From IMG/VR virus record IMGVR_UViG_3300020475_000135, positions 1 to 21,797 of that record: a DNA stretch of 21,797 nucleotides, one strand, 5' to 3'. The notes under the pieces are model-generated. The model searched no databases. It saw only the letters and a program-made list of their open reading frames with translations, and was not told the DNA's origin. The position numbers and the translations under genes were made by a program. Each line of letters opens with the position of its first letter. Position 1 is the first letter of the stretch. Positions 335 to 5,883 of this stretch are shown here, piece after piece. Origin of the DNA: a virus.

Positions 335-364
335 AATTCTCTCTCTCTTGTTAACTATATCTAT

Positions 365-624: not shown

Positions 625-652
625 AAACAAAAAACCCTCCTAAGAGGGTTTT
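625..652 (-). terminator. Intrinsic terminator of the hairpin RNA unit
   Basis: Arms 631-639 and 644-652 are perfectly complementary (AAAACCCTC/GAGGGTTTT) around a 4-nt TTAG loop. On the minus strand they are followed by TTGTTTT, so the U-tract is strong. It ends the short RNA from P3 and probably also read-through from the endolysin operon. Confidence 0.88.
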
Positions 653-715
653 AGTTTGTCGTGGGTTATTAGATTTAGAGAGAGTGAGAGAGAGGACTAA
701 CAATCCCACGACACA
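625..715 (-). ncRNA. Candidate small RNA: long hairpin with a CU-repeat, anti-SD-like loop
   Basis: A transcript of about 90 nt runs from the predicted P3 start (near 715) to the terminator at 625-652. The 5' part folds into one long hairpin: 9 perfect pairs (TGTCGTGGG 713-705 with CCCACGACA 665-657), one bulged A (704), then 7 more pairs including one G-U (703-697 with 672-666). The 24-nt loop (696-673) is almost pure pyrimidine, with the core CCTCTCTCTCACTCTCTCT. That resembles the 16S anti-SD region and is complementary over 9 nt to the GAGAGAGAG ribosome-binding site of the gene at 158-334. There is no open reading frame of note inside. Stem, loop, promoter and terminator are seen directly; expression and base-pairing in trans are inferred. 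The design (exposed CU motif plus 3' terminator) recalls cyanobacterial Yfr1, without evident sequence homology. Confidence 0.7.
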
Positions 716-721
716 TGGATT

Positions 722-750
722 AGACTATCATATCATAATATAAATGTCAA
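722..750 (-). promoter_or_regulatory. Sigma70-type promoter (P3) for the hairpin RNA
   Basis: Minus strand: -35 TTGACA (750-745), 17-nt spacer, -10 TAGTCT (727-722; a weaker -10). The predicted start is near 715, just at the foot of the hairpin RNA stem. An 8-bp inverted repeat, ATGGATTA (715-722) and TAATCCAT (759-766), brackets the promoter and could be an operator; its distal arm covers the end of the endolysin gene. Confidence 0.7.
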
Positions 751-757
751 TAGTTTT

Positions 758-1213
758 TTAATCCATTAACTCAAAATGTGGCCCATCAATAAATGGGCGT
801 CTGCCTTGTGAACGTCTTAGATCAATATATGCATTCATAGCATCTTCCATTGTTGCATCCCAATCTCGCATATCATCAACGTGCCATGCAGCTCCCCAAC
901 GTATTTGTACATCTTCTTGAATAGCTGCTTCTTTCATTGCATCTGCAAGATCATCATAAAGATTCAGTTCCCATGATCCTCTTGAACCCACATAGGCCAT
1001 GAGGTCAACTGCTTTACCTTCTAGATGTTTACTTTTCATAGTTTGACTTGCGCCTTTCGCTACAAGTTCTTTTTGTTGTGCTTCGGTTCTCATACCTTGA
1101 ATCACGCCAAAGTCAGTTTTAGTCAATCCTATTGCAGTTTTGACAACTCTTTGCATACGTTCATCAACACCTTCTAGTTTATCTAGTGATCTTTGTGATA
1201 ATTTAAATGCCAT
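758..1213 (-). CDS. Endolysin, M15-type D-Ala-D-Ala/L-Ala-D-Glu peptidase
   Basis: This 151-residue protein carries the zinc peptidase M15 signature: SKHLEGKAVD (61-70) supplies the His and Asp metal ligands (H63, D70) and GPHFEL (144-149) supplies the second His (H146). Family members such as the T5 endolysin and VanY-type carboxypeptidases cut peptide cross-links or stems of peptidoglycan, so the inferred role is host wall degradation at lysis. The length is typical of a single-domain phage endolysin. There is no signal peptide, so release to the wall needs a holin; holin candidates lie about 11 kb away (12434-13026). It ends its operon and is followed directly by promoter P3. A GGAG-type site precedes the start. 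Confidence 0.88.
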   Translation of the reverse strand: MAFKLSQRSLDKLEGVDERMQRVVKTAIGLTKTDFGVIQGMRTEAQQKELVAKGASQTMKSKHLEGKAVDLMAYVGSRGSWELNLYDDLADAMKEAAIQEDVQIRWGAAWHVDDMRDWDATMEDAMNAYIDLRRSQGRRPFIDGPHFELMD

Positions 1214-3158: not shown

Positions 3159-3404
3159 CTATAATCTCTCTTCTAATTCTTTTTGCATTTTACGTTTGTA
3201 TCTACGTATTGCAGCTGCTTTCTCTTTCCTACGTTTCTCACCTCTAGATTGATAGTAAGTTTTCTCACGCAGTTCTTGAATGATACCATCTTTGACAAGA
3301 CGTTTTCTAAGAACACGCAATGCACCATTTACATCATTGTTCCTAACAGATACTGCCAACCCTTTAGGTTCATCTACTTTATTTGATTTCTTTTTATACT
3401 TCAT
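3159..3404 (-). CDS. rpsU: Phage-encoded ribosomal protein bS21
   Basis: This 81-residue protein has the bS21 core VSVRNNDVNGALRVLRKRLVKDGIIQELREKTYY... and ends in the basic helix AAIRRYKRKMQKELEERL. E. coli bS21 is 71 residues and has the same layout; the extra length here is a Lys-rich N-terminal lead. bS21 binds the 30S platform next to the 16S 3' end that carries the anti-SD sequence, and aids initiation. Phage copies are known in marine phages and are thought to replace the host protein in ribosomes. Oddly, no Shine-Dalgarno sequence precedes the start (upstream bases CTGTCTAAATACTACT), so translation may rely on coupling to the gene ending at 3413 or be self-controlled. Confidence 0.93.
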   Translation of the reverse strand: MKYKKKSNKVDEPKGLAVSVRNNDVNGALRVLRKRLVKDGIIQELREKTYYQSRGEKRRKEKAAAIRRYKRKMQKELEERL

Positions 3405-3412
3405 AGTAGTAT

Positions 3413-3697
3413 TTAGACAGATATACCTTTCGCATATTCTTCATGTATGTCAATGATCTTGTATGCTTCAATACAAGCAGCTTCTAAAAGATCATGAGCA
3501 CCATCCATTGTTTCAAACCCATACTCATCTGCAAAGTCTAATGAAGAAGAAGTTCTGAAGAAATCTCCAAAACCATAGTTCGCAAGACAATTTGCAAGTT
3601 CATTAACATTGTTTGAAGAACAAACAATCTCATGGTTACCATTTTCATAATGGTGCAAATCTAATTTACCTTCACTACAACTCAAATATGAAATCAT
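3413..3697 (-). CDS. Hypothetical protein, first gene after promoter P4
   Basis: This 94-residue acidic protein (MISYLSCSEGKLDLHHYENG...) has two short Cys-containing segments and a hydrophobic/acidic C-terminal half (DGAHDLLEAACIEAYKIID). I recognise no family. A purine-rich AGAGAGAAAGG ribosome-binding site lies 8-10 nt before the ATG, and a sigma70-type promoter (3727-3755) lies just upstream. It ends 8 nt before the bS21 start, and coupling between the two is likely because bS21 lacks its own ribosome-binding site. Confidence 0.65.
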   Translation of the reverse strand: MISYLSCSEGKLDLHHYENGNHEIVCSSNNVNELANCLANYGFGDFFRTSSSLDFADEYGFETMDGAHDLLEAACIEAYKIIDIHEEYAKGISV

Positions 3698-3726
3698 TAT
3701 TAATACCTTTCTCTCTATTACGAATC

Positions 3727-4866: not shown

Positions 4867-5883
4867 TTAATTTGGATTTGGTGCATCTATGCCTGGAAGA
4901 TACTTAGACATACCTAACAGTTCACCATCAGTAAATTGACCATCAAATGGATCAATTACACCATTGGTAATTGCATCAGCCAAATTATTTGCTGTTATTT
5001 TAACTGCTAATGGCATATTTGTCATAGGAGCCATTTTAACCATTCCAGTATCCATACCACCCCAAGTATCTGAAGTTTCCCATGTACCATCTAATGCAGC
5101 CTGTATTCTTTTAATATAATAAGGGCCCCAATCATCTATAATAGCAGTAAGTTGGGTATTAGGAGCAAACTTAATCATATCAGAAGCTTGACCAAACGCC
5201 TTAATACCTTTCTTTTCAGCAACTTGTAATGCAGCTGTTGAATCTGTATGTTGAGTGATAATATCAGCTCCTTGATTAATTAGTACTTCAGCAGCATCAC
5301 CTTCTTTAGCTGGATCATACCAAGTATTAACCCATACAACATCTATGTCAAAATCTGGATTTACAGAAGCTGCACCTAAGTAAAATGCATTAATACCACG
5401 AATAACTTCTGGAATTGGAAAGGATGCAATATACCCTGCTTTACCCTTTTCACTCATCATTCCAGCGATTACACCTTGTATATACCTTCCTTGATAAAAC
5501 TTAGAAGAATACACTGACATATTTTCAGAAGTTTTATATCCAGTTGCGTGTTCAAACTTTACGTCTGGAAATTTCTCTGCGACATTTAACATTTGTTCCA
5601 TATATCCAAATGATGTTGCAAATATAATATCAACGCCTTGCATAGCCATTTGCGTCATAACTCTTTCTGCATCAGGCCCGTATTTGACATTTTCAACATA
5701 AGTTGTTGTTATATCATCACCGAAATGTTCTTCAGCTGTAATTCTTCCTTGGTCGTGCATATATGTCCAACCATGATCTCCAACTGGCCCAACATATATA
5801 AATCCAACTTGTATTTTGTCTGCATATGCAGAAGATACACTTAATGATAATAATAGTACTGATAAAATTTTAAACAGTTTCAT
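4867..5883 (-). CDS. BMP-family (PnrA/Med-like) periplasmic ABC substrate-binding protein
   Basis: This 338-residue protein starts with a clean Sec signal peptide (MKLFKILSVLLLSLSVSSAYA, cut before DK) without a lipobox, so the mature protein should be free in the periplasm. The rest is a full type I periplasmic-binding fold of the basic membrane protein family: GPVGDHGWTYMHDQGR near 32, FATSFGYMEQM near 88, EKFPDVKFEHATGY near 103, GYIASFPIPEVIRGINAF near 151 and ITQHTDSTAALQ near 209. Characterised members bind purine nucleosides or related bases and feed an ABC importer. No permease or ATPase is present here, so it would work with host components. The length is complete. It looks acquired from an alphaproteobacterial host. 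AAAGGTAG precedes the ATG; a terminator follows. Confidence 0.88.
   Translation of the reverse strand: MKLFKILSVLLLSLSVSSAYADKIQVGFIYVGPVGDHGWTYMHDQGRITAEEHFGDDITTTYVENVKYGPDAERVMTQMAMQGVDIIFATSFGYMEQMLNVAEKFPDVKFEHATGYKTSENMSVYSSKFYQGRYIQGVIAGMMSEKGKAGYIASFPIPEVIRGINAFYLGAASVNPDFDIDVVWVNTWYDPAKEGDAAEVLINQGADIITQHTDSTAALQVAEKKGIKAFGQASDMIKFAPNTQLTAIIDDWGPYYIKRIQAALDGTWETSDTWGGMDTGMVKMAPMTNMPLAVKITANNLADAITNGVIDPFDGQFTDGELLGMSKYLPGIDAPNPN

Follow-up and report, generated by a model that had tools for sequence, protein, structure and literature searches.

The timing of gene expression in T4-like phages is generally ascribed to promoters and to a few protein repressors such as RegA. In alphaproteobacteria, the small RNAs Cuckoo and CcsR carry anti-Shine–Dalgarno (anti-SD) loops, in which a stem-loop holds an unpaired C/U motif of a fixed CCUCCUCCC type. 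Three bacterial systems are close to the locus described here in one respect or another. RepG, an sRNA of Helicobacter pylori, binds a purine repeat in the leader of an mRNA through the C/U-rich loop of its terminator hairpin (PMC8295292); OppZ and CarZ of Vibrio cholerae are autoregulatory sRNAs derived from 3′UTRs and released by RNase E (PMC7398697); and in Staphylococcus aureus a pyrimidine motif in the icaR 3′UTR blocks initiation by pairing with that mRNA's own SD (PMC3868564). Phages also encode antisense RNAs that act by base pairing, among them OOP, sar, and PreS, and the passages of a phage sRNA review covered here describe neither a CU display loop of this kind nor loop–leader co-variation (PMC12197685).

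The RNA considered here lies in a 21,797-nt stretch of viral DNA (the window), a T4-like marine phage fragment with RNase H, bS21, DUF6433, and lysin genes. A phage-carried gene for a PnrA/Bmp-type substrate-binding protein (4867–5883) is also found in the window, as is the bS21 gene (3162–3404). Among cultured phages, its closest relatives are the four Melnitz phages, which infect OM43 strain H5P1 (RNase H identity 72.6%); BLASTN of the window region against isolated phages returned chance matches only. On the minus strand, directly after an M15-type endolysin gene (761–1213, minus strand) that serves as a synteny marker and corresponds to a GH108 lysin in Melnitz, sequence, fold, Melnitz synteny, and related loci together define a predicted transcript of ~90 nt (626–715). 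Its promoter (722–750), read from the sequence, comprises a TTGACA −35 (750–745), a 17-nt spacer, and a TAGTCT −10 (727–722), and the same promoter element occurs in four related loci (L094, L124, L157, and L180). Folding gives a 16-bp stem, whose 5′ arm (697–713, likewise backed by stem co-variation) contains a single bulged residue, A704, and whose 3′ arm spans 657–672, enclosing a 24-nt loop, UCCUCUCUCUCACUCUCUCUAAAU (673–696), the proposed antisense sequence, which is also defined by loop scans and alignment conservation. The intrinsic terminator AAAACCCTCTTAGGAGGGTTTTTT (625–652), predicted at 652–631, follows 3′ of the CU hairpin, so that loop and terminator occupy separate hairpins. Pyrimidines fill 18 of the 19 positions of the loop core and 20 of the 24 in the whole loop. 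The minimum free energy of 720–625 is −34.1 kcal/mol, against −15.8 ± 2.8 for dinucleotide shuffles (z −6.55).

The sequence-only reading had placed a small-RNA gene at minus-strand 750–625, with a strong-looking promoter, a 16-bp stem interrupted by a single bulge, a loop of 24 nt, and a terminator. All of these elements are present, and the description of the promoter was half right, since the −35 is perfect but the −10, although the best-spaced one for that −35, is weak. As far as sequence can establish it, the window RNA is confirmed as a gene for an RNA of ~90 nt, with transcription predicted. Rfam 15 contains no match to it at the gathering threshold; the weak best matches are leader and RNAI models (E 0.035, about half the cut-off score). 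A coding explanation of the hairpin was rejected because loop lengths differ out of frame (24 nt in the window, 25 nt in L157).

A syntenic RNA, likewise following the lysin gene, is found in Melnitz at 38547–38601, with a TTGACT-17-TATGAT promoter, stem AATGGATGGGAATTC, loop ACCTCTCTCTCGACTTTCTCTCTCA, a perfect 3′ arm, and a terminator; in Melnitz and most relatives the −10 is better than that of the window. This RNA is unannotated, and a CDS, MelnitzEXVC044M_66, is drawn over it and its terminator (MZ577097.1, 38547–38726; locus L406); the CDS is probably spurious. Few regulatory elements are reported in the Melnitz paper, where the term "small RNA" does not occur (PMC9004378). In the window, a probable second RNA gene of ~165 nt separates the CU-loop RNA from the next ORF (minus strand, 400–575), with a TTGACA-17-TATACT promoter (609–581) and a terminator (422–400). 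It has no Rfam match, and is conserved in the same four loci that share the CU-loop promoter element, with a compensatory change from TCAAG/CTTGA to CCAAG/CTTGG. The promoter and leader of this second RNA (543–600) and those of the 161–334 ORF (338–393) are ~80% identical copies, ending in AGAGGGAG and GAGAGAGAG, respectively.

The loop is more widespread than the window lineage. When viral contigs were searched for exact matches to the 19-nt loop core, irrespective of structure, the identical loop turned up on unrelated stems, and a 15-mer loop scan added further loci, including an upper group with strong flanking stems. A flanking-stem score of 25 or more was reached by 0.37% of random 15-mers versus ten loci from the two scans, with the window-type loci, whose stem is bulged, ranking next at 23. 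Because strong stems are rare around random 15-mers yet recur among the loop matches, the CU-loop hairpin is not a product of chance. In bacterial genomes the 19-mer gave five scattered matches, in unrelated bacteria. Additional hairpin loci were fetched through neighboring proteins. Across clades, 36 distinct hairpins show all four Watson–Crick pair types at each stem position, and within the window lineage 41 distinct stems keep their pairing by compensatory change; stem co-variation around a conserved CU loop is the outcome that the sequence-only reading had named as supporting. RNAalifold found no pairs in a MAFFT alignment of the lineage hairpins, an outcome that probably reflects gaps opened by MAFFT in the diverged stems, and stem pairs were therefore counted on individually folded hairpins.

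Within the window lineage, the hairpin is found in 57 of 79 related loci. A (CU)n-purine-(CU)n core, in loops of 18–32 nt, characterizes the window and 35 of the 41 lineage loops, and the loop holds most of the invariant and nearly invariant columns of the lineage hairpin alignment. An early-type promoter match lies directly upstream of the hairpin in 39 of 44 window-lineage relatives, and a T-run follows within 75 nt downstream in 19 of the 44. In several relatives (including L521, L522, L530–L532, and L534), a tRNA-like sequence, gcgGGTATCGTATAATGGTATTACCTTAGATTTCCAATCTAATGACGATGG, replaces the terminator 3′ of the hairpin. There is a single hairpin per genome in genomes of 165, 137, 141, and 100 kb. 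The hairpin is absent from the complete genome of Mosig and from the regions of phiM12, Slickus01, Mydo, KB57, Atu_ph07, and DLP_6 that were covered.

In other marine T4-like phages the hairpin occupies different positions. In the clamp-site clades it follows the VWA, CobS, and DUF3310 genes and precedes a T4-type late promoter, TATAAATA, upstream of gp45; at helicase-site loci it stands directly 3′ of the gp41 helicase gene; and in a third set of clades (L092/G007) a series of small genes precedes it. Given these placements, it looks like the 3′-end hairpin of an early transcription unit, and some copies are followed by U-runs and mark early-unit ends. ("VWA" is a working name for a 765-aa protein assigned to a PHROGs peptidase family, phrog_459, for which a Pfam search gave no match.) Loop identity, rather than shared position, suggests a common origin for the window RNA and these 3′-end hairpins. 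A small GC-rich inverted repeat of the CCGGC-AACC-GCCGG type lies immediately 5′ of the CU hairpin in four clamp-site loci (L210, L211, L215, and L221). The idea that GA leaders follow late promoters genome-wide was rejected, as it is mainly the late promoter adjoining the hairpin that has one.

The loops and the leaders of nearby early genes change together. In L211 and L213 the VWA leader contains GAGAGTGAGAG, which complements the loop exactly over 11 nt and stops 4 nt short of the ATG, and the L218 CobS leader is complementary to its loop over 14 nt. The 5′ half of the L260 loop departs from the CU repeat, reading TTTCCTAACTATA, and both the CobS leader TATAGTTAGGAAA (13 nt) and the VWA leader TATAGTTAGGA (11 nt) match it. 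The L278 loop, with matches of 10 and 9 nt, pairs with GAGGAGTTAG in the VWA leader and GAGAGGAGT in the CobS leader; that of its relative L414 matches ATAGTGAGGAG in another register (11 nt); and the loops of L253 and L256 match GAGAGAGGTCA (11 nt in L253). In the L275 and L424 clades the VWA and CobS matches extend over only 7 nt. CU loops pair with any GA-rich SD, and weak CU/GA matches therefore carry little weight; those of 7–8 nt are also reached by shuffled and non-cognate loops.

Each loop was paired with each clade's VWA and CobS leaders, and the cognate sum was compared with permuted sums. Cognate complementarity amounted to 152 nt versus 116.1 ± 6.5 over 15 clades (0 of 200,000 permutations), and to 100 versus 75.3 in the ten major groups (5 of 200,000), with per-gene values of 1 in 50,000 for VWA and 0 in 50,000 for CobS, although none of these figures is an exact probability because the clades are related. 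Internally shuffled loops gave a sum of 79.8. In the control leaders (gp45 and the next two genes) cognate complementarity is no different from permuted, and shared ancestry of the clades would not by itself give target leaders a complementarity that control leaders lack. At the helicase site, the SD of the gp41 leader complements the loop over 9–10 nt in six of six loci, where it ranks as the longest, tied, or near-longest match. An early gene cluster in G007 has the hairpin at its end, and four genes of that cluster have loop-matching leaders of the AGAGAGG type. The earlier suggestion that the RNA blocks phage ribosome-binding sites is thus well supported at the level of the family, by the VWA/CobS co-variation and the gp41 matches.

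It is probable, in our judgment, that the CU-loop RNA is a phage-encoded antisense regulatory RNA that pairs with the SD leaders of early genes, likely repressing translation starts. The strong hairpin would keep a pyrimidine loop of 20–25 nt single-stranded; the loop would base-pair with purine-rich SD leaders belonging to early genes of the phage itself; and pairing would most likely block ribosome binding, resulting in negative feedback on early functions. In the 3′-end clades an operon would feed back on itself, in trans or inside one mRNA. In the window lineage the element would be a free-standing small RNA, which, having its own early promoter and terminator, must act in trans. Beyond transcription itself, we infer repression (rather than activation) and its timing.

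Several other readings of the hairpin may be weighed against antisense control. The loop could be the site of a phage or host RNA-binding protein (S1-like, Hfq-like, or a phage repressor) acting in RNA stability or sequestration, as its strong conservation on freely varying stems and the regular flanking of the purine by two pyrimidine tracts might suggest. However, loop changes have counterparts in particular mRNA leaders but not in the controls, and where the L260, L278, and L414 loops leave the CU repeat, their target leaders change with them; we consider a protein site unlikely. Less likely still is a cis pseudoknot, in which the loop would pair with the adjacent late-gene leader in read-through transcripts and control that gene only. 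The clamp-site loop and this leader do co-vary (88 vs. 76.2; 135 of 50,000), and L224-type phages have an 11-nt match there, but the co-variation is weaker than that with VWA and CobS, an adjacent late leader of this kind is absent from the helicase-site phages and from the window, and the window RNA stops at its own terminator.

The proposal that the loop mimics the 16S anti-SD, titrating host or phage SDs generally, was raised in the sequence-only reading and now appears very improbable. Purine-rich SDs do pair with the loop, and the anti-SD-loop sRNAs of alphaproteobacteria offer a precedent; but the family loops have CU repeats in place of a conserved CCUCC, the leaders of gp45 and the following genes have no match, and mimicry is disfavored because conserved pairing extends past the SD into phage-specific sequence (TATAGTTAGGAAA, GAGAGAGGTCA, and ATAGTGAGGAG). 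A hairpin serving simply for termination or stability, its loop under no selection, might be argued for from the U-runs after some copies at early-unit ends, but can be dismissed as scarcely credible, as the stems vary while the loop is constant, the opposite of what a plain terminator would show, and the window RNA has a separate terminator.

If antisense pairing is the mode of action, the targets of the window RNA itself remain candidates, because the neighboring leaders compared in its lineage lack co-variation and counts of long matches are only a little above background. The gene 0.3 kb downstream had been proposed as a partner, and the leader of this 161–334 ORF does contain a 9-nt loop complement, GAGAGAGAG (339–347, minus strand), ending 4 nt before the ATG at 334; but cognate complementarity among relatives (130) hardly differs from permuted (129.2), and the site is a candidate only. 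Similarly, the proposed site at the bS21 operon exists as AGAGAGAAAGG (3706–3716, minus strand), in the leader of the 3413–3697 ORF upstream of bS21, with an 8-nt exact complement, TAGAGAGA, but this leader does not co-vary among relatives and is a weak candidate. Five neighboring leaders were compared across the window lineage, those of the next gene, DUF6433, RNase H, the 3147 ORF, and bS21; for none is cognate complementarity better than permuted, and all were set aside as unproven targets. In the longer lineage genomes, long complements are only slightly more numerous than for other lineage loops. Leaders of phrog_10415 are complementary to the loop in Melnitz (TGAGAGAGG) and G005 (AGAGAGAGA), the two window-lineage genomes in which this gene was found; a search of 14 longer lineage fragments did not recover it. 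A MTNETIFIGANNGG gene has a 9-nt loop match in G017 and G023, and a G018 gene with a similar start has one of 11 nt. Judged by these matches, phrog_10415 and the MTNETIFIGANNGG gene are better target candidates than the downstream gene. The window copy would appear to use the same principle as its relatives, with targets mostly outside the window.

There is, in our estimation, an even chance that these hairpins represent a widespread and previously undescribed class of riboregulator, one hairpin per phage tuned to a set of early-gene translation starts and coordinately turning early functions down during infection, which exists both as an early-operon 3′-end element and as a free-standing gene. 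Were a conserved antisense RNA indeed to follow the SDs of replication and other early genes, the early switch of abundant ocean phages would have a further, RNA-based layer. Loop–leader co-variation also offers a route to target prediction from sequence alone, and a cultured phage–host pair makes the CU-loop RNA testable.

The known systems resemble this RNA in separate ways. RepG shares the pairing of a C/U-rich hairpin loop with a purine-rich mRNA leader, but it is a bacterial gene that targets a homopolymeric G-repeat lying a long way upstream of the RBS, and no sequence relation is seen; the CU loop, in contrast, co-evolves with several phage SDs. Where RepG carries its antisense in the terminator-hairpin loop itself, the window RNA does not, and some relatives have a U-run directly after the hairpin. 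OppZ and CarZ are comparable as operon 3′-end RNAs that inhibit translation of their own transcript, as proposed for the 3′-end clades, but they depend on RNase E release, whereas the phages use hairpin-loop display. The relatives do place the RNA at the 3′ end of the mRNA that would be regulated; the window copy is free-standing, having its own promoter and following a lysin gene that lacks a complementary SD. In icaR a pyrimidine motif likewise covers an SD, but in a single bacterial gene with no family of display hairpins, as opposed to several genes and co-varying loops here. Cuckoo and CcsR also expose an unpaired anti-SD-like C/U motif on a stem-loop; the family loops have no conserved CCUCC core, instead carrying CU repeats around a purine that are tuned past the SD. 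The sequence-only reading knew of no described phage RNA of this form, and we found neither an Rfam family nor a description among openly licensed papers. RepG, OppZ/CarZ, and icaR each share one aspect with it. We therefore regard the CU-loop RNA as a new RNA family that probably uses base-pairing control, set apart by an unusual display loop and by co-variation with multiple genes.
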